This document shows positions 82-57,414 of a stretch of 57,414 bases of DNA, one piece after another. The translations under genes and the position numbers were made by a program. The notes beneath the pieces were generated by a model that saw nothing but the letters and a program-made list of their open reading frames with translations, did no database searches and was not told the DNA's origin. Numbering within the stretch: the first letter of the stretch is position 1; every line of letters starts with the position of its first letter. Source of the stretch: a virus; the IMG/VR virus record IMGVR_UViG_3300037041_002697, positions 1 to 57,414 of that record; one strand, written 5' to 3'.

Positions 82-145
82 AATGATTACCGACAAAGGC
101 AGAATTAAATATACCGTCTCAGGTATTGAGTATACCATCGATTTT
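1..145. repeat. Left copy of terminal overlap (circular genome closure)
   Basis: Bases 1-145 match 57270-57414 without gaps except for substitutions at 54 (t/g), 61 (a/g) and 106 (t/a). The copy holds the last 26 codons plus stop of the tail-tip gene and the first 21 codons of the next gene, so both reading frames run straight across the joint. The simplest reading is a circular or circularly permuted genome whose contig ends overlap. The three differences (two silent, one Ile/Val) look like strain variation, not sequencing error. Confidence 0.9.
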
Positions 146-1636
146 GATCGCTATTGGCAGACCTGGCAGGAAGTTCAACAGCGGATTCGGGGCATGATGC
201 AAGCGATTTCCGGGATTGTACAATACGCTGGATTTTATGACCAATCAGTGATTTCTGTCCTGCGCGATCACCTTTCAGGCGACTTGAAAATGCAACTCCA
301 GCATTGGTATGATGCAGTCAAGGATGGTACGAGTTTTAAATTTTGGCTGAATAAATACCTGGTGCTTTACCTGTCATTTGAACGCGGAACCAATACCCAT
401 GATGGTAATGCTATTACCTTTGTGCGCGCGGGTGCAGCTAATTACGAAAACATTCATACCGGCGAACTCGAAAGCGCAGCTACAAATATTCCACGCTTAG
501 TTGAGGGAAAGTTTACCGATACGGAAGGACTTTTGCGCGAATCGATAATGACTTCTCATTTAATTGCCAAATCAGAAGCATTGGATGATGTTTCTTGGGT
601 GGCTTCCAATGTTACCGTAACGGCAGATCAAGTAGTCGCACCCGATGGAACCACCACAGCTGATAAGTGCGTGGCAGGTGTTGGCGGTGGAACCTTAACG
701 TACGACACGGCAACGGCCTTTGGAACCAATAATGTAGCTTTCTCAATCTGGGCAAAGTCATTGCTGGGAACGGTTAGTTTTCAATTAAGCATTCAAAATA
801 CAGCCGGAACAGTCTTAGCCAGCACCACGATTACAGCCAATAGTGAATGGCAACGGTTTAAACTCGGTTACAAAACCGTTTCCAGTGTAGCGAATAATAT
901 TCGATTCAAGGTGCATCTTACTACCGAAGGATCGACCCTTTGGCTTTGGGGGGCACAAGGTGAACTTAGTCAATACCCCACCCATTACGTTAAAGACGGC
1001 GGAGCACGTGAAGCCGAAATTGTGTATTATGCTATTCCAACTTGGTATTCCGAAAGGCAATTTTCGATTTCTTTCTGGTATAAATCCGAATTTAATCAAG
1101 TAACGGGCACGAATAGAAGACTTTTAGCTTTTTATGCCACGACCAGTTCCTATGGCTACTTAAAACTTGACACCTCCGATCAACTTGCTATTGGCTGGGC
1201 GCGCAAAGATGCTGGTTATACCTTTGTTGATGCCTGGGCGATTGGATCAACTGTATTCGTCAAAGATACCTGGGTGCATATCTGTATGACTTGGGATACC
1301 TATACTGCCGATTCGCTGAAAGTTTATCTCAACGGCGTATTGAATCATACTTGCACGGTTCCTGAAATGGACATTTACAAATGTAATCGCTTATACCTGG
1401 GAAGTACCGCCACACCAACCGAAGGTGCTGACGGCGTGTTTGACGAAATTCTGCTGGAATCACGCGTGATTGATGCAGCGGAAGTACGTGCCAGGTATAA
1501 TCGGCAGTATTCATTTGGAATCGGACAGAATTACTTCCCCACCCTGCAACTCAGTGAAGGCACGTTTGAACCGTCTCCGCAGCAGGGAGCTGACACCTGG
1601 ACATTTAAAGGATTATTTAAAGAAGTTTTAACATAG
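83..1636 (+). CDS. Phage fibre protein with LamG/concanavalin A-like lectin domain
   Basis: This 517-residue protein starts directly after the tail-tip gene stop. Residues 1-110 are alpha/beta and probably attach it to the tail. Residues about 185-315 resemble the jelly-roll 'spike/fibre' domain found in many phage structural proteins, ending with a W-G-A-Q..YPT pattern. Residues about 325-475 are a convincing LamG-type lectin fold: QFSISFWYK at the start, VHICMTWD and VYLNG in the middle, FDEILLESRVIDAAEV at the end. Such domains bind glycans, so a role in receptor recognition is likely. There is no signal peptide, unlike several genes that follow. The first 21 codons are repeated at the right end of the window. 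Confidence 0.75.
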   Translation: MITDKGRIKYTVSGIEYTIDFDRYWQTWQEVQQRIRGMMQAISGIVQYAGFYDQSVISVLRDHLSGDLKMQLQHWYDAVKDGTSFKFWLNKYLVLYLSFERGTNTHDGNAITFVRAGAANYENIHTGELESAATNIPRLVEGKFTDTEGLLRESIMTSHLIAKSEALDDVSWVASNVTVTADQVVAPDGTTTADKCVAGVGGGTLTYDTATAFGTNNVAFSIWAKSLLGTVSFQLSIQNTAGTVLASTTITANSEWQRFKLGYKTVSSVANNIRFKVHLTTEGSTLWLWGAQGELSQYPTHYVKDGGAREAEIVYYAIPTWYSERQFSISFWYKSEFNQVTGTNRRLLAFYATTSSYGYLKLDTSDQLAIGWARKDAGYTFVDAWAIGSTVFVKDTWVHICMTWDTYTADSLKVYLNGVLNHTCTVPEMDIYKCNRLYLGSTATPTEGADGVFDEILLESRVIDAAEVRARYNRQYSFGIGQNYFPTLQLSEGTFEPSPQQGADTWTFKGLFKEVLT

Positions 1637-1663
1637 TATTTTATAATAAGAAAGGGCTATTTT

Positions 1664-2209
1664 ATGAAAAAATTGATGTTTATATTTCTTACATTCTGGT
1701 TAATTTCGCCTGTAATTTCACAGGATATTATTAGTAATGACGAAATCTTATCACAGCGAATTGATTTTGACTATTCAATTCGGGCGGGAGTTACTACGCA
1801 GTATGCTGCCAATCGTGACACCGTGACTATTTTAGGAGCACTTGATACAGTTGTTACCCGCTATTGGAAAAACAAAGGCGGAGATATGTCGGTACAATTT
1901 CAGATTAACAATGGAACAGCAGTCCGTTTATCAATTGAAGTTCAAGCCGCGAATGGTAGTGAAATATTTGCTGATTCGAGCTTTCAAACGCTATATTGGA
2001 TCCATTGGACAGGCAGTGATTTAGCACAAGTAAAAACGGCGGTGGATTCAGTAAGGTATACCGGCACAGCAACGTATAAAAAGACCATTCCGATTATTAT
2101 TCCACCGCTCGGAATTGATGTCTTTCGTATTCGCATTATATCAAAATCCACCTGTACCGGCACTCCCAAAATTCAGGGCATCATTCTCAAACGCTTAAAA
2201 GTTAGTTAA
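1664..2209 (+). CDS. Exported beta-rich protein of unknown function
   Basis: The 181-residue product begins with a classic Sec signal peptide (MKK, about 15 hydrophobic residues, VIS before QDI), so signal peptidase would leave Gln at +1. The mature part is beta-strand rich and has a single Cys (T-C-T-G) near the C-terminus. It lies 27 bases after the fibre gene and 14 before the beta-helix gene, in the same operon. I do not recognise a family. Virions assemble in the cytoplasm, so a signal peptide here is unexpected; the protein is more likely delivered to the periplasm or outside than built into the tail. Confidence 0.6.
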   Translation: MKKLMFIFLTFWLISPVISQDIISNDEILSQRIDFDYSIRAGVTTQYAANRDTVTILGALDTVVTRYWKNKGGDMSVQFQINNGTAVRLSIEVQAANGSEIFADSSFQTLYWIHWTGSDLAQVKTAVDSVRYTGTATYKKTIPIIIPPLGIDVFRIRIISKSTCTGTPKIQGIILKRLKVS

Positions 2210-2223
2210 ACGAGGTGAAAATT

Positions 2224-5200
2224 ATGCGACAATTCTTATTAATATTTTTAATAGTGTTTTTAGCTTTTGCCAGTTATGGGCAAAATACGACTACAATGAC
2301 TCCATTTCTGCATGTTATGAATACTTTAACGGCGGATTCAATCTGGGCGCGGGCGTATGGCAATTTAGCCACCAGTTTAGGATCAGCCAGTGTTATGGAT
2401 TTTGGCGGAACTCATGCCGACTCAGTCGATAATGCCACTGCAATTCAGGCGGCTATTACTTACGCTCAGGCGAATGGATTGCATACAATTTACTTTCCAT
2501 CAGGGAATTATTGGACAAGTCAAATTACTTTAAGCAGTGATGATTCATTAGCTTTTGTCGGACAAGAGGGAACTGTTATTCACAGTCTGGTAACATTTCC
2601 TGTGGATTATGCAACAGTGGCTTATTATAGAAGTATTTTCTACATTGTAGGGTGTGATTACCTCACTTTTGACAATTTGTCTTTCAATCTGGGAGCATCG
2701 ACAAAATTTCCAATGAGTTATATTTATCCAATTTTTGTTTATTCTTCCAGCGGGAATAACTTGCATTCAAAATATATTCGGGTGAAAAATTGCACTTTTA
2801 CCGATTGTGCAGCCATTGAATTTTGGGGGGCTTCCAGCGATACTTCCGTTTGGGGAGCCGATATTTCACGTAATAACTTCTTTCCTGCTGACACTTTAAG
2901 TGGTATTCAATTTTATACGTCAGGCTTTTTAGTGAATGTTACCAATAATAATTATTACGGAAACGACCTGGGACGGCAGTTTATAGTTGGTCAACCCACA
3001 AAGGCAATTATAACAAATAATAAAGTATATCGACCGGCGGATTCGGGAATTTATCTTAGTTCCCCAGATGTGTTAATTGCCGATAATTACATAGAAGCCT
3101 GCGGTAAAGATGGCATAAAAGTAATTCATTCACGTGGTTCAAATATAATTGTCAATAATAATATTGTTAACGGCGTTGGACGGTTAAATCGCGGTTCAAA
3201 TGTTGGCTATAACTTTGAAGCATCGCGGGTGGCAATGACTGGGAATATTTTTACAGCCGACACTACCAACGCCAGTGGTGATATTTGGTATTGGAAAACC
3301 CAACACGGCCTAAAGTTAGGAACTGGTACGGACTCCAGTCAATTTTCTAATAATCAATTTTACGGTGTTGGTTTATTAGGTGGAGCCAATGAAGGTTCCG
3401 GTGTCCGACTTAGTGTCAGTGTTACGGAATGTAAACTTTCAAATAATATTTTCACTGGTTTTGAATACGGAGTTGTCGGAATTGGAAATAATGTTAAGCG
3501 AATTTACCTGGATAACAATTATTTTTATGACATTCGCTTAAATAACATTCGTTTTGCCGATACTTATACAGGTATGGCAAATATAATTGTCAAAAATAAT
3601 ATCCATCGAGACAGTAATTATCCCATCATTGTAAAAAACGTGGATTCATTATTGATTGAAAGTGAATTTTCAACTGGCACGCAAGACAACTCATTTATTA
3701 CCGATCAAGGCGGGAATACTAACTTTGTTCAGCATAATAACGAACGAATGGGTAATTTAACCCTATTTAAAAATTTTCAAGCCAATTGGGTGGTGGTAAA
3801 CGACTCAATTCGAGTTGAGAAAACAGCTTTAATCAAAGGTAAAGTTACAACTAACGACTCATTAGCCAATGTTAAAGGTATCCGTACCGAAGGAATTTCA
3901 CTACTTAAAGGAACGGTTACCGCAAAAACTAAAGTAATAATAAATGATTCACTACGGGTGGAAGAAACCAGTTTATTGAAGGGAGCGGTTACTCTAAAAA
4001 ATGCCATCGACTTAAATCATGGTACCACCGGGGTTAAAATTACGAATAATTCAGATGGATCCTTGACTTTTCTCGGACTGGGAAACGGTGCTGATGAAAA
4101 TGTCACCATCGATTTAGACAGTAAAACCGATACGGTTTATGTTTCGAGTGGAACTGGAGCCAGTACTTTGCATTATGTTGGTACGATTTCAGGATCAACC
4201 GGACTTTCCACGCCCGGTAAAATTGTGGTCAATGATTCGTTACGCATTGGGGAAAATACAGTAAAAGATAATGTAGTTCCGTCATTATCACTCAAAGGGG
4301 ATGCTGATAGTGATCTTTCAGGTATAACGAAATCAATCTGCACCCTTACATTAGCGGGGAATGCTGACCCAACCCTGGCATACTGGAAATTATCAGCCAC
4401 TTCAGATCGTTTCTGGCTGGGGGGAGCGACTGACTATGTGACAATAACTCCATCAACTACCACGGGAATGTTAGTTCTGAATGCAGCTACAGCGGGGAAC
4501 TGGACTGGAATCACTTTCAGTGGAGCTGGATTCAACGATGTAAGTGATTATTGGATATACATGGATTCAAACACGTTTTGGCGGAAAGGTGGGGCACTTA
4601 ATACGACATCTAATATTAATACTACAGGCAATTTACAAGCGCAAAATGGCAACATAATAAATAATGCAACGGTTTCAGATGCTGAGAATCCTACCTACAC
4701 CCAAAAAGCTGATTTCGATTTAGATGCAGGTGTGGTTCAGGGATATGACTTAGTGCTACAGGCAACCTCAAACGCCAATCCTGCACTTGGAAAATGGTCG
4801 TGGACTAGTACCGGCGGATTAGGTTACTCATTTGATAAAACACTTTTTGCTGATGGCCTGCAATTAACCAACGGCCTAAAATCAAAATATGTTGATAGCA
4901 CTGGCGTTGACGGAATTGTAACCAATAACACCTTATCAAGTTTAGGCAGTTTCACTAAATTAGTCGTGAATGATTCACTCCGGGTTGAGGAAACCACTTT
5001 AATAAAAGGCAAAACAACGGTTAATGATAGTTTGGTAGCTGTTAAGGGTATTCGTACCGAAGGTTTAGCTTTCTTAAAGGGTAAAGCGATTATAAATGAC
5101 TCAATCCGTGTTGAAAGTACCTCACTTTTAAAAGGCAAAATTACTGGAAACGACTCAATAGTTACTTTAAAAGGCATTCGATCAGAAGGTTTAGCATTTT

Positions 5201-6108
5201 TGAAGGATAAAGCTGTTATTAATGATTCGCTTCGGGTTGAAAAAACTTTATTAAGTAAAGGTAAAGGAACTTTCAATGATTCCTTAGTTACAATAAAAGG
5301 ATTTCGTAATGAATCAATCTCTACGTTGAAAGGGGATGTAACTGCTCGAACAAAAGTAGTCATAAATGATTCTTTACGTGTAGAAGAAACGGCACTGATT
5401 AAAGGCGCTATTACAGCAAACAAAAAAGTAGTCGTAAAAGATTCGCTCCGCGTGGAAAAAACTAGTCTATTAAAAGGTAAATTAACCACCAATGACAGTC
5501 TGGTAAACATCAAAGGTATTCGTACTGAGGGACTGGCTTTCTTAAAAGATAAAGCAGTGATCAATGACTCCCTGCGAGTTGAAAAGACTGTCTTAATAAA
5601 AGGTAAATTAACCACTAATGATAGTTTAATAACTTTAGATGGTTTTCGCACGGAAGGTCAAGCCCTGCTCAAAGATAAAGCCGTTGTCAGTGATTCATTT
5701 CGAGTTAGATTAACATCAGTTTTTAAAGGCGTTATTACTGCTGCCGGGATAAATTCCAGTTCAGCAATTGCCACCACAGCAAATGCTGATATAACGACTT
5801 CCCGCTATTTTGTGCATAGTGTTGCGGCTACATTGACCGCTGCAACACCCGGAATCCAGGGAGATGCTCAATTATCGAAAGAAGTTAATGAAGTTTCAAC
5901 TGTGACAAACACCAACGATGCAGTTACATTGCCAAATGCCGCGGTTGGGCGGGAAATTTTTATTATCAATAATGGAGCAAATACGCTCGAAATTTGGCCT
6001 GCTTCGGGTGATAACTTAGGAGCGGGGGTTAATACGGCCACCACTTTAATTTCTGGAGCCAATATAACCTTTATAGCCTATGACACCACTAATTGGGAAG
6101 TTAAATAA
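2224..6108 (+). CDS. Giant exported parallel beta-helix protein with tandem NDSLRV repeats
   Basis: The ATG at 2224 follows gaggtg; an in-frame GTG at 2215 lies inside that ribosome site, so I prefer 2224 (1294 residues). A signal peptide (MRQFLLIFLI.., SYG|QNT) precedes a pectate-lyase-like right-handed beta-helix at about residues 50-500: an N-terminal DFGG..DNATAIQAAI cap, the FPSGNYW strand and many N-N-x-F/I turns. Residues about 520-595 and 915-1170 carry ten copies of a V-N-D-S-L-R-V-E-x-T motif in an LKGK/NDSL/KGIRTEG repeat. The last 110 residues are a compact beta domain seen at the ends of phage fibres. It could be a depolymerase-like spike, but the export signal argues for secretion. 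Confidence 0.75.
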   Translation: MRQFLLIFLIVFLAFASYGQNTTTMTPFLHVMNTLTADSIWARAYGNLATSLGSASVMDFGGTHADSVDNATAIQAAITYAQANGLHTIYFPSGNYWTSQITLSSDDSLAFVGQEGTVIHSLVTFPVDYATVAYYRSIFYIVGCDYLTFDNLSFNLGASTKFPMSYIYPIFVYSSSGNNLHSKYIRVKNCTFTDCAAIEFWGASSDTSVWGADISRNNFFPADTLSGIQFYTSGFLVNVTNNNYYGNDLGRQFIVGQPTKAIITNNKVYRPADSGIYLSSPDVLIADNYIEACGKDGIKVIHSRGSNIIVNNNIVNGVGRLNRGSNVGYNFEASRVAMTGNIFTADTTNASGDIWYWKTQHGLKLGTGTDSSQFSNNQFYGVGLLGGANEGSGVRLSVSVTECKLSNNIFTGFEYGVVGIGNNVKRIYLDNNYFYDIRLNNIRFADTYTGMANIIVKNNIHRDSNYPIIVKNVDSLLIESEFSTGTQDNSFITDQGGNTNFVQHNNERMGNLTLFKNFQANWVVVNDSIRVEKTALIKGKVTTNDSLANVKGIRTEGISLLKGTVTAKTKVIINDSLRVEETSLLKGAVTLKNAIDLNHGTTGVKITNNSDGSLTFLGLGNGADENVTIDLDSKTDTVYVSSGTGASTLHYVGTISGSTGLSTPGKIVVNDSLRIGENTVKDNVVPSLSLKGDADSDLSGITKSICTLTLAGNADPTLAYWKLSATSDRFWLGGATDYVTITPSTTTGMLVLNAATAGNWTGITFSGAGFNDVSDYWIYMDSNTFWRKGGALNTTSNINTTGNLQAQNGNIINNATVSDAENPTYTQKADFDLDAGVVQGYDLVLQATSNANPALGKWSWTSTGGLGYSFDKTLFADGLQLTNGLKSKYVDSTGVDGIVTNNTLSSLGSFTKLVVNDSLRVEETTLIKGKTTVNDSLVAVKGIRTEGLAFLKGKAIINDSIRVESTSLLKGKITGNDSIVTLKGIRSEGLAFLKDKAVINDSLRVEKTLLSKGKGTFNDSLVTIKGFRNESISTLKGDVTARTKVVINDSLRVEETALIKGAITANKKVVVKDSLRVEKTSLLKGKLTTNDSLVNIKGIRTEGLAFLKDKAVINDSLRVEKTVLIKGKLTTNDSLITLDGFRTEGQALLKDKAVVSDSFRVRLTSVFKGVITAAGINSSSAIATTANADITTSRYFVHSVAATLTAATPGIQGDAQLSKEVNEVSTVTNTNDAVTLPNAAVGREIFIINNGANTLEIWPASGDNLGAGVNTATTLISGANITFIAYDTTNWEVK

Positions 6109-6126
6109 CGAAGAGGAAATAAAATT

Positions 6127-6681
6127 ATGAAAAAATTATGGTTATTATTAATACTTTTAAGCCTGGTGACCGGTTGTTTTTCACAGCATAAAGTTGATTT
6201 AACAACAACTCCGCCAAGCGTGGTATTTCCGGGTCAAGTTAGTTGGAATTTTATTCATGCGTTTATGTTTAAGGAAGATACCACGATCACGCCCAATTGT
6301 GACGGCACCGGACTTTATGTCAAAATATTGGGAAAGTTTGTGACTGGTTTTGGCTTAGTAGAAAACGATGGATTTACTATTGCCGGAGACAGCATAACAA
6401 TTATAACGCCTGGTGATTATTATCTGATTTATAGTTATACTTTTTCTGGTTCAAATAATGCCGATTGGAAGATCGCAGTATTTAAGAATTCTGTCAAACA
6501 ATACGGAACACGGCGATCATCGACTTCTGGAAACTATTCCGGGGGAACCACGCCTTTTTATCTCTTGAATTTGGTAGCCGGGGACGATATTTCAATGAAA
6601 GTGGCAAATTTGACAGCGCCCGGAACAGATAATCCAACTTTTTCAAATGTTAATTTATTTATATATAAAATTCCAGAATAA
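6127..6681 (+). CDS. Putative lipoprotein with C1q-like jelly-roll domain
   Basis: The 184-residue product opens with MKKLWLLLILLSLVTGC; VTGC is a good lipobox, so Cys17 should be lipidated and the protein membrane anchored. The rest (TPGDYYLIYSYTFSG, then KIAVFKNSVKQYG, PFYLLNLVAGDDISMKV and NVNLFIYKI at the end) follows the strand order of C1q/TNF-like jelly rolls, folds that trimerise and bind ligands. The lipobox is clear in the sequence; the fold is inferred. Ribosome site gaggaaa. It sits 18 bases after the beta-helix gene. Surface display by the infected cell or superinfection exclusion are possible roles. Confidence 0.65.
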   Translation: MKKLWLLLILLSLVTGCFSQHKVDLTTTPPSVVFPGQVSWNFIHAFMFKEDTTITPNCDGTGLYVKILGKFVTGFGLVENDGFTIAGDSITIITPGDYYLIYSYTFSGSNNADWKIAVFKNSVKQYGTRRSSTSGNYSGGTTPFYLLNLVAGDDISMKVANLTAPGTDNPTFSNVNLFIYKIPE

Positions 6682-6719
6682 TATCGTTCAAAAGGAATCT
6701 AATAAACATAAGGACAGCT

Positions 6720-6992
6720 ATGAATGACAGGAATGACGAAACAAACGAAACCGAAAAAGACTGGGCTAAATCAAGATTATTTGTCATGAATGAATTAAAT
6801 CGGCATGTAAAATGTTTGGATGAAGTAGGTACTAAATTAGATCAAATTCTGGCTACTTTACAAGAAATGAAAATAAATGAGGCTCGGTTTACTACTGAAT
6901 TTAAAATTAAATCAGGTTTCTGGGGAATTTTAGGCGGCGCTATTTTAGTATTAATCGAATTGGTGTATCAACTTTTAAAAAATAAATTCTAA
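6720..6992 (+). CDS. Small coiled-coil protein with C-terminal membrane helix (XhlA/holin-like)
   Basis: The 90-residue product has a charged, helical N-terminal two thirds with heptad pattern (LDEVGTKLDQILATLQEM) and one C-terminal transmembrane segment of about 18 residues (WGILGGAILVLIELVYQLL) followed by KNKF. This layout is that of the haemolysin XhlA/holin-accessory family found in phage lysis cassettes. It begins a group of three small genes of which two are hydrophobic. A lysis role is inferred; no endolysin lies beside it. Confidence 0.5.
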   Translation: MNDRNDETNETEKDWAKSRLFVMNELNRHVKCLDEVGTKLDQILATLQEMKINEARFTTEFKIKSGFWGILGGAILVLIELVYQLLKNKF

Positions 6993-7026
6993 TTGTTTAA
7001 CAAATCTTAAAATTGAGAGGCTTAAT

Positions 7027-7314
7027 ATGAACAAATTATTATTAAAAATCGTGGCATTTCTGGCAACTTGGGATTCATTGCTGGAAGTTTTATTGAAATT
7101 TGCTCTGGACTATTTGGCTGATATTGTTAAAAATAAAATCACTCCACAAGGTCAGGATGCTGTAAAAGTGTTCTACGTTTTATCCAAAACACTCGGAACC
7201 CGCTGGGCACGTGATACTAAAAGTTCTATTGATGATACTTTAGTTAATCAAGTAAATACTAAATGCGAGCAAATTGCCATTGCAACTGGTTTTAAATTAC
7301 CCACAATTTATTAG
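7027..7314 (+). CDS. Small hypothetical protein in the putative lysis group
   Basis: A 95-residue protein with a hydrophobic, amphipathic N-terminal half (two helices around residues 3-35) and a polar C-terminal half. It has no clear signal peptide or family motif. The start follows gagagg in an operon of small genes with similar 10-35 base spacing. It could be a holin partner or a virion component; the sequence does not decide. Confidence 0.5.
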   Translation: MNKLLLKIVAFLATWDSLLEVLLKFALDYLADIVKNKITPQGQDAVKVFYVLSKTLGTRWARDTKSSIDDTLVNQVNTKCEQIAIATGFKLPTIY

Positions 7315-7328
7315 AACAGGAAAAATCT

Positions 7329-7709
7329 ATGTGGATTTATATTTTATTCGGATTTTTAGCAGGCTTTTTCAAGGCGATTCGGGATACGGTCAAAGACCAT
7401 TGGCCGCGGGCTATTTTCAATCAACTGCCTGAACCCTGGTGTGCCTGGTTCCGTTCCGATTGGCAGGATAAAAGACTACCTTATCCCCTAACCGATGCCT
7501 GGCATTTGGCGGATTTTTTAAGTTATATCTGCACTGGGGTATTTTTACGCCACTGGCATTTGTTAACCAGTATTGACTATTTTGTGCAAATCGCTATCAT
7601 ATTCTTATTATTTTTCGTAACAATGACCATTACTTTTCAGCTCTTTTATCATAAGATTTTAGTCAGAATATACGAAAAAATTTATACTCGATTTTTTATG
7701 GAGGCATAA
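7329..7709 (+). CDS. Integral membrane protein, unknown function
   Basis: A 126-residue protein with an N-terminal hydrophobic segment (WIYILFGFLAGFF), a Trp/Pro-rich amphipathic middle (about residues 25-55), a likely second segment around DFLSYICTGVFL, and a strong C-terminal helix (QIAIIFLLFFVTMTITF). His residues occur near the membrane segments (HLADF, RHWHLL). It lies between the small lysis-like genes and the glycosidase, with aggaaaaa before the ATG. A holin, spanin-like or membrane-remodelling role is possible but not shown. Confidence 0.55.
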   Translation: MWIYILFGFLAGFFKAIRDTVKDHWPRAIFNQLPEPWCAWFRSDWQDKRLPYPLTDAWHLADFLSYICTGVFLRHWHLLTSIDYFVQIAIIFLLFFVTMTITFQLFYHKILVRIYEKIYTRFFMEA

Positions 7710-7714
7710 AATAA

Positions 7715-9439
7715 ATGCAAAAAATCGGTGGATTAATTTTAATTTTAGTTGAACTGGCATTTAGTCAAATTACAATTGATTTTAATATAGTGAAACCAAT
7801 TCCATATCGTAATCTTAATGGCTTTGGGCATTCTGGATTTTACTACGAACAAACTACAGCTTATAAGGAATTTCATCGCCTGCTAAAATTAGCAGAACAC
7901 CAGGGTAACTATCCAGCAAAATATTTACGGTTATTAAATATTTTTTCATACCGCGAAAATACCGATGGCAGCCTGATGGATTATGCCGAAAAAATGGGTG
8001 GTCGACCTTATGATGAGGAGCGTTATCCAGGGGATCATTTTAATTTCGGAAAGGTTTTTCAGGTACTTGATGAACTTAATAATAATACCAAATTAAAATT
8101 ATTAATTGAATATAGCTTTATGCCAGTCTGTCTGGCTGCGGAACAGTATGTTGGAAATTTTGGTGAGGCTATTTGTTCGCCACCAAAATCGTATGATATT
8201 TGGGAGAATATTATCTTCCGAACGCATTCGGAATTGATCGCCAGATATGGTGCAAGTACGATTAATTCCTGGCGGTTTGGCGTTTGGAATGAACCAAATT
8301 TTAGTGTTTTTTGGAAATTCAATGAGTGGGGCTACGATGGCTTTATTCGACTATACGATATTGGTAATGATGCCATGCGAAACGTTCCTGGTGCACTGCC
8401 GATTACTGGCGGGCCGGATAATACGGCGGTCATGATCTATTCTAAACAATTTGTCAATCACACGAAATCGGGGGTTAATTATGCCACCAATAATATCGGC
8501 AGTCAAACCGATGCTTTCACCTGTCATCAATATTCAACTAATCCTCGTGATGTTCTAAAAGACATGTGGCAAATGTGCAAAGACGTGATTGAAGTTTATG
8601 GCACTCAGCACCAGGAAAAACAAGTCTGGATTACGGAAACTGCTCCAACTGGCGAAATGTGGTCGCAACCGTATGTACAAAATGAATATGCAGCCTGCTG
8701 GTGGTTGTCACTGTTAGACATTGCTTACGAAACCGCCGACTTGCAAGGTGAATTTTGGCTGCCAAAAATGATATTATTTCACGGTGATCTTAGGCAATTT
8801 GAATACCGTTCAATCGGCATCTTGAATGCTGATAACAATTCAACTCAGGTTTTGAAGACCCCTCTTTTCAACCTTTGGGAAATGATGACCTATCTATCCC
8901 CCACCCGCTTGCAAGTTCAGGGGTGTAATTACCCCAGTCAAATGACAGATGTCAATTATACGGCTGGAATAACGCCAGATCAAGTGCGGGCTATTGCTAC
9001 TAAATCGAATGCGGGAATACAAATCCTGTTATACCACTTTGACGCCAGCAATCGGCTGGTTTACAACAAAATGGATGACGGTAGTAATCCTGCTCAATCA
9101 TACGGAAATTATAAAACCGGTCGGGGCAGCTATACCACCCAATATTTTATTTCGGGTATTCCTTTTTCGCAAATTCGCATTCGGCATTTCGTGATCGATG
9201 AAACGCGGTCAAATGTATTCGCGTATCGGTACAAATACAACCTTACCGGTAATTTTGCCGTACTTGACGAACATGACGACCTGGAACAGACGGCGGAATT
9301 TCAGCAAAATATTTATCACACCGGCACCTTCCGCGAGACGGTTACCTTGCAGGAAAATTCAATTCTATTAGTCTTAATTGACGCTGTTGGAGATTCTTAC
9401 AAAATGGAAAAAATTAACAATTTGAGGTTAATAAAATGA
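7715..9439 (+). CDS. Exported glycoside hydrolase, family 39-like (clan GH-A)
   Basis: This 574-residue protein has an N-terminal hydrophobic leader ending AFS|QIT, giving Gln at +1. A TIM barrel follows. The acid/base motif VWNEPN places Glu193, and WITET places the nucleophile Glu308, about 115 residues apart as in GH39 beta-xylosidases and alpha-L-iduronidases. GFGHSGFY near residue 36 and TCHQYSTNP near 279 add to the match. The C-terminal 130 residues look like the accessory beta-sandwich. GH39 retains configuration and cleaves xylosides, iduronides or exopolysaccharides; the substrate is unknown. It overlaps the next gene by ATGA. Probable role: digesting host capsule, biofilm or released glycans. 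Confidence 0.8.
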   Translation: MQKIGGLILILVELAFSQITIDFNIVKPIPYRNLNGFGHSGFYYEQTTAYKEFHRLLKLAEHQGNYPAKYLRLLNIFSYRENTDGSLMDYAEKMGGRPYDEERYPGDHFNFGKVFQVLDELNNNTKLKLLIEYSFMPVCLAAEQYVGNFGEAICSPPKSYDIWENIIFRTHSELIARYGASTINSWRFGVWNEPNFSVFWKFNEWGYDGFIRLYDIGNDAMRNVPGALPITGGPDNTAVMIYSKQFVNHTKSGVNYATNNIGSQTDAFTCHQYSTNPRDVLKDMWQMCKDVIEVYGTQHQEKQVWITETAPTGEMWSQPYVQNEYAACWWLSLLDIAYETADLQGEFWLPKMILFHGDLRQFEYRSIGILNADNNSTQVLKTPLFNLWEMMTYLSPTRLQVQGCNYPSQMTDVNYTAGITPDQVRAIATKSNAGIQILLYHFDASNRLVYNKMDDGSNPAQSYGNYKTGRGSYTTQYFISGIPFSQIRIRHFVIDETRSNVFAYRYKYNLTGNFAVLDEHDDLEQTAEFQQNIYHTGTFRETVTLQENSILLVLIDAVGDSYKMEKINNLRLIK

Positions 9440-9918
9440 AGAAATTTAACATGATGTTATTACTTCTGATGGTAATTTTACTAAGCCTGCCAATTCAGGC
9501 TAAGGATTTTAAAATTGCCTGGACACATCCAACTATGGCCATTATTGATAGTTTTCAAGTCCAGTGGGGAGTGCATTCCTATTTGAACCCGAAGGTTAAT
9601 ATTACCTTTGACCAGGTTGTTCCGACCTTTGACACCCTATTTACTGCCATCATTCCTGACGGCGAAATAACCACTAACGGCGGGTATCAAGTCTGGTTCC
9701 GGGTGATTGCTTTTGCCAGTGGGCTAGCAGCGATTTCCGACACTTTAACTTATACGGAATATCTTCGGGCAGATATGGAGCGTGATCCTACAAAATCCGA
9801 AGTCACTTCCCGTGATCATGCCCTTTTTCAGGATCGCTTTCAAGCAATTTATCAACGCCCGGCCTTGAATTTTATATTCCCCAAGAGGCGAATCCCGGAC
9901 GTACAGCCACAATTTTAA
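9436..9918 (+). CDS. Exported fibronectin type III-like protein
   Basis: The 160-residue product starts within the last four bases of the glycosidase gene (ATGA), so the two are translationally coupled. A strong signal peptide (MKKFNMMLLLLMVILLSLPIQA) precedes about 85 residues that look like one FnIII module: FKIAWTHP at the start, SFQVQWG in the middle and YQVWFRVIAF near the end. The C-terminal 50 residues are charged and end with Pro/Arg-rich sequence. FnIII modules are common next to secreted carbohydrate-active enzymes. A partner or anchoring role for the glycosidase is an inference from position. Confidence 0.6.
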   Translation: MKKFNMMLLLLMVILLSLPIQAKDFKIAWTHPTMAIIDSFQVQWGVHSYLNPKVNITFDQVVPTFDTLFTAIIPDGEITTNGGYQVWFRVIAFASGLAAISDTLTYTEYLRADMERDPTKSEVTSRDHALFQDRFQAIYQRPALNFIFPKRRIPDVQPQF

Positions 9919-9930
9919 CAGAAAGTTATT

Positions 9931-10425
9931 ATGGCATTATACAGCATTTTAACCGATATATTTTACACAATCGGACAAATTTTAACGCAACTTAACGAAA
10001 GTGAGACTAATATGAATATGTTAATTGGTGAAGAAAAAACGCTTAATTTAGTAATAAATGGTGATACAATCAGGCAGTGTGAAGTGAATTTGAGTTACCC
10101 GGCGAACCTGATAGATATTATTTTGCCAACTCAGGGAGCAACCGGATTTACGAATTTTACAGCAGGAAAAGTGACCGGACAAACTGGCAAATATTTCTTT
10201 TTAGGTTCCTTTGCGTCGGGTGGATTTCAAACCTTCCTGAATACTTTATTCGCAACGGCGAAAATTAAAGCGCTGGCGGCGGGAACGGGTGCAATTGTAA
10301 TCACACTGGGAAAACTGCGTGACAACGGCCTGGCGGATTTTTCTAACATTGAACTGGTCAATCCTGATGGAACGATCACTATTCCCGCGCCTGTGGTGTA
10401 TCGAATTACGCTAACAATTACTTAA
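9931..10425 (+). CDS. Cohesin-like beta-sandwich protein
   Basis: A 164-residue protein and the last gene before the late terminator. Residues about 30-155 follow the pattern of bacterial cohesin-type modules: GEEKTLNLVINGD, then a CEVNLSYPANLIDI strand, GKYFFLGSFASGGF, ATAKIKALAAGTGAIVI, and a final strand pair. Cohesins bind dockerins or act as carbohydrate-associated scaffolds. No signal peptide is visible; the N-terminus (MALYSILTDIFYTIGQ) is amphipathic. I saw no dockerin repeat in the window. The fold is inferred from strand pattern only. Confidence 0.5.
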   Translation: MALYSILTDIFYTIGQILTQLNESETNMNMLIGEEKTLNLVINGDTIRQCEVNLSYPANLIDIILPTQGATGFTNFTAGKVTGQTGKYFFLGSFASGGFQTFLNTLFATAKIKALAAGTGAIVITLGKLRDNGLADFSNIELVNPDGTITIPAPVVYRITLTIT

Positions 10426-47477: not shown

Positions 47478-47999
47478 ATGCGAATGAAAAATGCTTTAAT
47501 TGTTTTATTAACCTTGCTTTTTGTGGGCGCCTTCCTGGTTTTGACAGGAGCGGATCACAAATATGCTGAATTATATTGGCCTCAGATAATTGGTGAAGCT
47601 TCGGGCACGCGGGTGGTTTATACCTGGCAGATTGACCCGACTACGGCTGCAACGGATCACTGGGTTTTGGGTGACACTACCACGGCGGGAGATTACTCGC
47701 CACCTGGTGCGTTGGAAATAACTCGAATGTGTATCCACTGGGATCCCGACTCAGGTGATTCGATTCGTGTTCTAATATTAGACGGCGGTGGAACCGGGGC
47801 CGGTGCAATTGTATGCGATTCTGATACTCTATGGGGAACAGCCTGGGAAATGAATGATATTACCACTGTTTCCAGTACTGCTAAAACCATAACGGCAACA
47901 GAAGGCATGGGTGTACAATTCATTCATATCAGAGGAACTCCCGGAATTGTAAACCTAACCATTGAAGGCAAAAAACGCAACTCAGATAATGCGGAGTAA
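47478..47999 (+). CDS. Exported or membrane-anchored beta-rich protein in the head operon
   Basis: A 173-residue protein with an N-terminal hydrophobic helix (MKNALIVLLTLLFVGAFLVLTGA) that can serve as signal peptide or anchor, followed by a beta-sandwich (SIRVLILDGGGTGAGAIV). Finding it directly after the capsid gene is odd because head proteins do not normally carry export signals. aaggaaa precedes the start. Unknown. Confidence 0.55.
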   Translation: MRMKNALIVLLTLLFVGAFLVLTGADHKYAELYWPQIIGEASGTRVVYTWQIDPTTAATDHWVLGDTTTAGDYSPPGALEITRMCIHWDPDSGDSIRVLILDGGGTGAGAIVCDSDTLWGTAWEMNDITTVSSTAKTITATEGMGVQFIHIRGTPGIVNLTIEGKKRNSDNAE

Positions 48000-55050: not shown

Positions 55051-57350
55051 TTTTTGGCGGAACTAATTTTGGCAACTACGTGGATGATTTGAATGTCAAT
55101 CCTATAATCGTAATAAAAATTTCATCGTTTTATTTTTGTACCGGTACCTTTTCAGGTATCACTTCCAGCTATAAAAAATGGCTTTCCGAAGTGAAATATC
55201 AGGGTACAAAAATAAAACTTTCGGATTTAACCAGTGATTTGCCAACCCTGGATTTTACGGTAATTGATTACGATAATGACATTTCGGACACCATTGGCGC
55301 GTATAACTTTTTGAATGCTACGGTTTACCTTTATTATGGTTTTCAGGAAACTCCGATTACGGATTTTATTCAACTCGGAAAGTTCACTTGTACCAATGTC
55401 GAATTTATTGCTGACTCAAAATCATATTCCATTACTTGCCAATGGTGGGGGACGGCTTTACGCACTCCGTTATTTCGTAAGTTTACCAATAGCACCTTAA
55501 CTGCAGCTATTACTGCCAGCGAAACTGAATTAATATCTGATGGTGATCTTTCAGACGGTACCGACTGGGTGGTTACTGATGATTTCGCCTATAACTTAGG
55601 CAATCAACAGATTGAATTTGATTATGATATTGGTTATGGTTCAATTACGCAGGACAGCACTGATTTTGGTGAATTACCGGTGGCTAGTATGCGCTATGTC
55701 CTTTCATATACTTTAGCTTCACTTAGTGGTGGGACATTACCCGAAGAGGGATATGTATCAGGTTTAACAACAACTTTCTTTAGTTTACCCTGTACTACTG
55801 GCACGCATGAAGTTATCATCCAAATCCGCTCGGATTATGCCTTTCATGATTTAGTTTTAGAATTTTATTCTGATGATTCAAACGCCCATTTTTCAATTGA
55901 TGATATTTCGCTGAAATATACGGCGGTTGAAGTAACTGATGCCAGTAATTTTACCACGCCTGAATCGGCTCCCTGGGGAAGTGAAAACGATGTATATGCC
56001 AAAATTAATGATGAGGTTTTTCATTTATTATCGGTTTCAACTAACAAATTCTATACCTGGCGGGCGCGGCTGGATACCGTAATTCAGGAGCATGCCATTA
56101 ATGACTTTATACGAGAAATTTTTGTAATTGCGTATGATCCGTATAAATTTATAATGCAACTCTTACAAACAAATTACGGTGGAACTTACGACTGTAATGT
56201 TGACTCCTGGGGATTAGATGCTGGTTATCTAATTGATGAAATCGCCTGTAAAAACGATTTCCAGCGGTGGTATCACCCTGAAGTAGTGACTTCAATGTTT
56301 CATTGGTATTTAGAAGAATCACCAACCGATGCAATTCGGTATCTATTTGATGAAGTATTGCCATTAATACCGGCCTTTATTTTTGTTAATAGTGACGGCT
56401 TGCTAACATTACATGCCCTGGATATGCGGGTTCCGAATGAAGGCGACTTTGACATTGATGAAAATAATTCTAATAATCAACGCTTGAATATTGACATGAC
56501 AGGCAGTTTTTCAAATATCGAATTTTTCTCGAATTTTAATCCTGGTACAAATGATTTTATTGAAAAAGAAAATGCCAATGAACCAAACATTACCCTAAAC
56601 ATTGGGGATATAAACAAACGCACTATTAAAGTTCATGATATTAATCAGATAGCGGATGATTTGAAAAAAATGATTGCCAAAAGATTTTTCGGCATAAATG
56701 GTTATCCCATTTGTTATTGGTCTGGTGAAGTCTTCCTCTCCTCGATTGTAGTGGAAACCGGAGATGTCGTTAATATTTCAAACGCCTATTTGCCCCTTTT
56801 CCCATCGAAAACAATGGGCTGGACTAAGCGTGGAGGAATGGTGATCGGTCATTCGCTCGAATTTAATCAAAACGGATTCAAGCGGACTATCGAAGCAGCC
56901 GTATTAAACATGTTCGCGACCAGTCAAACCAGCAATGTTTTTGTATACGCTGATATAGCAGATACCACCCTAACGGTCGGAACCACCGCAACGGATGCCA
57001 CTGGCTTAGTTGATAGCCACCGTGATTACGGAATTTTTACTATTGAGGCGGATTTACCAACAGGTGCCAGTGCTGAGGAAAGCGTAAATATGACCTTTAC
57101 AATGACGGATGTTTTGGGTGGAATTACTGTTTATCGAAATTGTGATCTCTATTATGATGCCCGAAAATCAGGTAGAAAGCGCTGGGAAGTGCGTGTTGAA
57201 ACGGATGAAGCTTTATTTACGCCTTCAAATATTACAGTTACCTGGGTTTCCGAAACAGGTGCAGCGGGGGAAAAATTAACGTACGTAGAATTAATTAAAT
57301 ACAAATTAGTGGCTTATTCACTGGATAACGTAGTTTTGGCGGACTTGTAA
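55047..57350 (+). CDS. Tail-tip / baseplate protein with carbohydrate-binding-like insert
   Basis: The 767-residue product overlaps the tape measure gene by ATGA. Residues 1-155 look like a distal-tail or hub domain. Residues about 165-295 (DGDLSDGTDWVV to SIDDISLKY) have the shape of a CBM4/9-like beta-sandwich. The middle (about 320-640) is a hub-like part with W-containing strands, and the C-terminal 120 residues are FnIII-like. It probably forms the tail tip and contacts host glycans. The C-terminal codons repeat at bases 1-81. Confidence 0.7.
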   Translation: MIFGGTNFGNYVDDLNVNPIIVIKISSFYFCTGTFSGITSSYKKWLSEVKYQGTKIKLSDLTSDLPTLDFTVIDYDNDISDTIGAYNFLNATVYLYYGFQETPITDFIQLGKFTCTNVEFIADSKSYSITCQWWGTALRTPLFRKFTNSTLTAAITASETELISDGDLSDGTDWVVTDDFAYNLGNQQIEFDYDIGYGSITQDSTDFGELPVASMRYVLSYTLASLSGGTLPEEGYVSGLTTTFFSLPCTTGTHEVIIQIRSDYAFHDLVLEFYSDDSNAHFSIDDISLKYTAVEVTDASNFTTPESAPWGSENDVYAKINDEVFHLLSVSTNKFYTWRARLDTVIQEHAINDFIREIFVIAYDPYKFIMQLLQTNYGGTYDCNVDSWGLDAGYLIDEIACKNDFQRWYHPEVVTSMFHWYLEESPTDAIRYLFDEVLPLIPAFIFVNSDGLLTLHALDMRVPNEGDFDIDENNSNNQRLNIDMTGSFSNIEFFSNFNPGTNDFIEKENANEPNITLNIGDINKRTIKVHDINQIADDLKKMIAKRFFGINGYPICYWSGEVFLSSIVVETGDVVNISNAYLPLFPSKTMGWTKRGGMVIGHSLEFNQNGFKRTIEAAVLNMFATSQTSNVFVYADIADTTLTVGTTATDATGLVDSHRDYGIFTIEADLPTGASAEESVNMTFTMTDVLGGITVYRNCDLYYDARKSGRKRWEVRVETDEALFTPSNITVTWVSETGAAGEKLTYVELIKYKLVAYSLDNVVLADL

Positions 57351-57414
57351 AATGATTACCGACAAAGGCAGAATAAAATATACCGTCTCAGGTATTGAGT
57401 ATACCATCGATTTT
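57270..57414. repeat. Right copy of terminal overlap
   Basis: This is the right partner of bases 1-145, identical apart from three substitutions. The unit genome is therefore 57,269 bp. Confidence 0.9.
57352..57414 (+). CDS. 5' fragment of the LamG fibre gene (second view)
   Basis: ATG 57352 begins the same 21 codons as the gene at 83-1636, with one silent difference, and is cut by the window end. It confirms that the tail-tip gene is followed directly by the fibre gene on the circle. Confidence 0.85.
   Translation, partial: MITDKGRIKYTVSGIEYTIDF

Follow-up and report, generated by a model that had tools for sequence, protein, structure and literature searches.

The window, meaning the whole 57,414-nt stretch of DNA that was analysed, is a virus record, that of an uncultured tailed phage, encoding a terminase, portal, major head protein, head protease, tape measure protein, DNA polymerase, helicase loader and methyltransferases. 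Its two ends (positions 1–145 and 57270–57414) share 145 nt with three mismatches (142/145 identical); an exact repeat at the ends is absent from the record. Because the ends are nearly identical, the contig closes on itself, which makes it a complete genome, about 57,269 bp long, and the gene described below, which encodes a family 39 glycoside hydrolase (GH39), is therefore not a host fragment. The imperfect repeat also shows this nominally ‘linear’ record to be a circularly closed genome with strain polymorphism. Searches with the major head protein or terminase found no close phage, returning either nothing or one weak fragment.

The GH39 gene (7715–9439) lies on the plus strand within a run of same-strand genes from 83 to 10425 with intergenic gaps of less than 40 nt, in which tail and spike genes are followed by small membrane proteins and then by GH39. 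The run begins with a tail or spike fibre protein (83–1636) that contains a GTA_spike_fiber domain (NF048003, E = 7e-19) and a LamG domain (PF13385, E = 3e-15). Next are a 181-residue protein with a Sec signal peptide (1664–2209; cleavage predicted between VIS and Q) and a beta-helix, tail-spike-like protein with internal repeats and a signal-peptide-like N-terminus (2215–6108; SYG before Q; PF13229, E = 2e-10; phrog_2234, tail spike). This spike contains a diverged repeat (approximately VINDSLRVE.T.L.KG) in as many as eight copies at about 3784–5657, and over residues 1202–1294 its C-terminus shares 45% identity with a DUF2793-containing protein of the Manatee Spring phage ctIqW946. We rejected ctIqW946 as a relative: that protein, matching the end of the spike, is all the two phages have in common, and the ctIqW946 gene labelled ‘glycoside hydrolase’ turned out to be DUF2460 rather than GH39. 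The run continues with a 184-residue protein carrying a signal peptide or lipobox (6127–6681; VTGC) and, as judged by hydropathy, a 90-residue protein with one C-terminal transmembrane segment that could belong to a lysis cassette (6720–6992), a 95-residue protein with a hydrophobic N-terminus (7027–7314) and a 126-residue membrane protein that ends 5 nt before the GH39 start (7329–7709). Downstream are a 160-residue protein (9436–9918) and, as the operon’s last gene, a 164-residue protein with no Pfam, PHROG or NCBIfam match (9931–10425).

The GH39 reading frame runs uninterrupted for 574 residues from an ATG at 7715 to a stop at 9437–9439, with a GGAGG Shine-Dalgarno sequence at about 7700–7704, and its GC content and codon use are like those of the rest of the phage. 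The protein scores 89.8 bits with PF01229 (Glyco_hydro_39; E = 2.2e-25), for which the cut-off is 26. It also matches beta-xylosidases in the PDB (phmmer), and a profile of five members matched 1px8 over most of the model (E = 3e-74). When an AlphaFold2 model made from 38 sequences (mean pLDDT 77, pTM 0.85) was compared with the PDB using Foldseek, all 24 top matches were GH39 enzymes (E = 2e-30 to 3e-24), while the first GH30, GH79 and GH51 matches came only at E values of at least 2e-15. The 25th match was 5z3k, a Croceicoccus marinus glucosidase; CmGH1 of this species is described as GH39 (PMC6933502). The sequence-only reading had assigned the protein to GH39 and had named a better fit to another clan GH-A family as one outcome that would overturn the assignment. 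The Pfam profile and the predicted fold both point to GH39, which came ahead of all other clan GH-A families in the structure comparison, so the assignment withstood this challenge. By profile, model and tree, the ORF encodes a genuine GH39 family member that is predicted to be an active glycosidase. GH39 includes xylosidases, glucosidases and iduronidases, so the specificity of the phage enzyme cannot be read from its sequence.

Both catalytic glutamates are intact and normally spaced, as had been proposed. E193, the acid/base in VWNEPN (codon at 8291–8293), and E308, the nucleophile in WITET (codon at 8636–8638), are invariant across the 38-sequence homologue alignment, and in a profile alignment they pair with E160 and E277 of 1px8, the T. 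saccharolyticum xylosidase (residue numbers counted off the printed alignment). They are separated by 115 residues, compared with 117 in 1px8. The phage enzyme keeps the catalytic pair expected of a retaining mechanism, and such activity is predicted for it.

The N-terminus is predicted to be a Sec signal peptide (7715–7765; MQKIGGLILILVELAFS, followed by Q), based on a hydrophobic core of 2.95 over 10 residues and a net positive n-region by composition. Both of its 43–44% identical homologues (described below) have a signal peptide at the matching position, which bears out, as a prediction, the earlier suggestion that the enzyme is exported. Six proteins in the genome have signal-peptide-like N-termini: those encoded at 1664–2209, 2215–6108, 6127–6681, 7715–9439, 9436–9918 and 47478–47999, the last directly 3’ of the major head protein gene. 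Signal peptides are an odd feature for virion proteins, which are put together in the cytoplasm. Within the GH39 operon, Gln is the residue predicted at +1 for four of the five proteins with signal peptides (the GH39 site was judged by eye). Gln at +1 after cleavage is the Bacteroidetes Q-rule (PMC5837995), and such signal peptides were previously noted in Porphyromonas gingivalis phage proteins (PMC10367356). The pattern points to a Bacteroidota-like Sec system but does not fix the host phylum, because Q-values differ widely outside Bacteroidetes (PMC5837995).

The stop codon of GH39 overlaps the start of the 9436–9918 gene by ATGA (AAAATGAAG), so the coupling to a downstream partner described in the sequence-only reading holds, at the level of translation. 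Its label for that partner, FnIII-like, did not fare as well. The 160-residue protein has a signal peptide and no Pfam or NCBIfam match, its sole PDB match is Tencon, a consensus FnIII, at a weak E of 1.2, and folding it alone gave a poor model. No relative of it was found in INPHARED.

The closest relatives of the phage GH39 that we found are cellular. In 82 genomes of candidate division KSB1 (the phylum of L009), two proteins share 44% and 43% identity with it over nearly full length (E = 3e-156 and 8e-140), and the next-best relatives found anywhere are about 30% identical. Bacteroidota was ruled out as the nearest source found, since the matches in its 395 genomes were weak and partial, with none better than E = 8e-18. 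In a maximum-likelihood tree, the phage and the two KSB1 sequences join with support of 100/100, and this trio is nested in an all-KSB1 clade (99/98). The KSB1 pair is nearest among the matches listed, with phyla other than KSB1 and Bacteroidota partly sampled, and a closer source may exist. By these sequence relationships, the phage enzyme has its ancestry among KSB1-type bacterial enzymes and most likely comes from a borrowed host gene. A portal homologue was not found in the 82 KSB1 genomes, a search run without a positive control. Short DNA matches to the first 19.9 kb of the window gave no CRISPR spacer evidence; three lacked repeat arrays and the fourth was GH39 itself.

The surroundings of the KSB1 pair resemble neither prophages nor exopolysaccharide clusters. 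In the wider clade, the neighbours of GH39 genes (n = 83) include group-1 glycosyltransferases (15), sulfatases (8), Polysacc_synt (5), Wzy_C (4) and carbamoyltransferases (3). Control regions from some of the same genomes gave at most two group-1 glycosyltransferases in 73 genes, as inferred from the order of the families listed. In L120–L132, from the KSB1 phylum, GH39 occurs with sulfatases, APS kinase/ATP sulfurylase, carbamoyltransferases and Golvesin domains, a gene content that suggests a sulfated exopolysaccharide.

GH39 had been called unusual in phages, and our searches agree. A tblastn search of 50,697 phage records gave only one match, INPHARED MT836841 (L002), which we rejected as a second phage GH39 because its neighbour genes mark it as bacterial contamination. 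This GenBank ‘Bacteriophage sp.’ entry (MT836841.1) looks bacterial-chromosomal, its beta-xylosidase being flanked by a branched-chain aminotransferase and a lactate dehydrogenase (names assigned by reading ORFs). When 2.9 million IMG/VR contigs were scanned for patterns from five GH39 queries, no relative was confirmed; such scans require a motif to match exactly, and divergent members can escape them. Viral predicted structures likewise yielded no convincing GH39 (best TM 0.47, 10% identity). Yet GH39 has been reported on viral contigs from the Mariana Trench (PMC8725595) and the rumen (PMC11879238), and viral GH39 appears within a grouped listing in a third paper (PMC10227523). The family is thus very rare in phages but not unprecedented, and host-derived viral glycoside hydrolases are already known.

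The reading we favour, at a probability of about 0.5, is that the phage captured a host-type secreted GH39 that serves as a soluble depolymerase of the host’s exopolysaccharide or capsule and aids egress or spread. Taken together, the signal peptide and the exopolysaccharide genes neighbouring its clade argue for a Sec-exported retaining glycosidase acting most likely on host exopolysaccharide; since the two closest homologues lie outside such clusters, the proposed substrate derives from the farther clade members, at about 30% identity. A siphophage would have captured the gene and kept the signal peptide and catalytic module; the sugar-binding ones (BACON and malectin) would have been lost, and what remained would have become fixed within the tail/lysis operon. 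The enzyme would probably be produced late in infection and leave through the host Sec pathway, at least as far as the periplasm. There it could cut the host’s own exopolysaccharide or capsule by a retaining two-glutamate mechanism and, as a soluble, non-virion protein, might help progeny to exit or to spread through the slime layer.

A role in the virion is also conceivable, although we consider it unlikely: GH39 would belong to the tail or the adsorption apparatus and, in the manner of tail-spike depolymerases, cut surface polysaccharide as the phage enters. It shares an operon with the GTA_spike_fiber/LamG fibre and the beta-helix spike, and these spike and fibre-operon neighbours have signal peptides too, so having one is no proof in itself that GH39 stays out of the virion. 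That peptide would nevertheless take the enzyme away from cytoplasmic assembly, and small membrane protein genes stand between the spike and GH39. Phage tail-spike depolymerases are typically trimeric beta-helix proteins, virion-bound through a tail-attachment domain. Here the 24 best structural matches are GH39 barrels, no trimerisation, tail-attachment or other tail domain was recognised in the protein, and its layout matches that of soluble bacterial enzymes.

A broader extension of the exported-depolymerase reading strikes us as rather doubtful. Phages that infect uncultured KSB1 or other Bacteroidota-like bacteria might, during infection, export a Sec-targeted block, consisting of the small protein, beta-helix spike and lipoprotein-like protein upstream and then GH39 with its coupled partner, in which GH39 would be a dedicated slime-dissolving egress enzyme, perhaps replacing or acting alongside a conventional endolysin.

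We think it a little more doubtful still that GH39 is an auxiliary metabolic gene feeding the infected host from environmental polysaccharide, whether xylan-like or algal. Viral glycoside hydrolases including GH39 have been reported as such (PMC8725595, PMC11879238), a viral GH5 was demonstrated to be active (PMC6786970), and the closest GH39 homologues bear BACON and malectin modules. These sugar-binding modules are, however, missing from the phage protein, its gene sits in a tail/lysis operon rather than among early metabolic genes, and no transporter or further carbohydrate-metabolism gene was recognised in the phage genome.

Very unlikely, in our estimation, is a lysis enzyme that replaces the endolysin or helps to rupture the cell envelope. 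GH39 lies directly 3’ of small membrane proteins that are potential holins, and no lysozyme, amidase or cell-wall peptidase was recognisable among ORFs of at least 90 residues in the complete genome. Divergent endolysins escape profile searches and the scan was mostly confined to ORFs of that size, so this absence lends a lysis role little weight. We know of no GH39 that acts on peptidoglycan, and the homologues are polysaccharide-associated. A search of the protein for an endolysin domain matched only GH39, apart from a sub-threshold match to a rhamnosidase model (E = 0.002). Finally, an assembly chimera, contamination or a decayed passenger gene is barely credible: a second phage copy was not found, but the genome closes on itself, and the gene has an intact frame, an overlap with the next gene, matching composition and conserved catalytic residues.

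The locus offers a clean case: a complete phage genome with a host-type polysaccharide hydrolase whose active site is intact and which has a predicted export signal. The closest cellular source indicates an uncultured phylum, KSB1, for which no phage is known to us. If host exopolysaccharide is the substrate, the enzyme would count as a phage depolymerase of family GH39 that might be used against slime layers of Bacteroidota-like bacteria, and the case makes a guess at the host testable.

The phage GH39 is real and intact, with host-type ancestry; it is not a new kind of system. Its nearest counterparts, the KSB1 GH39-BACON_2-Malectin proteins (L133:8111–10660 and L134:3288–5837), have the same signal-peptide position and catalytic residues at 43–44% identity. 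They are 850 residues long, with C-terminal BACON_2 and malectin modules, and lie in a chromosomal, non-viral context, whereas the phage enzyme comprises only the catalytic part and lies in a phage operon. GH39 beta-xylosidases (1px8, 2bs9/1w91 XynB1, 6yyh) have the fold, catalytic pair and C-terminal beta-sandwich region in common with it, but at about 16–17% identity by structural alignment their exo-xylosidase specificity cannot be assumed for the phage. The alpha-L-iduronidases of GH39 (4kgj, 5ndx), which the phage model matches at E of about 1e-26, have the same fold but a specificity of their own and extra domains. The virome GH39 genes (PMC8725595, PMC11879238) are likewise on viral contigs and were described as carbon-degradation AMGs. 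The Porphyromonas gingivalis phage proteins share Bacteroidetes-type signal peptides with Gln at +1 with this operon but are not described as glycosidases (PMC10367356). Pseudomonas aeruginosa PslG (4zn2, 5bx9), encoded in an exopolysaccharide cluster, is an endoglycosidase of family GH39 that resides in the periplasm (PMC11912335). It is bacterial and its sequence is only very distantly related (profile E = 7e-5), yet it too is an exported GH39 enzyme, as predicted for the phage one, and is tied to an exopolysaccharide locus. By analogy, the phage GH39 most likely relates to the host exopolysaccharide as PslG does to its polymer.
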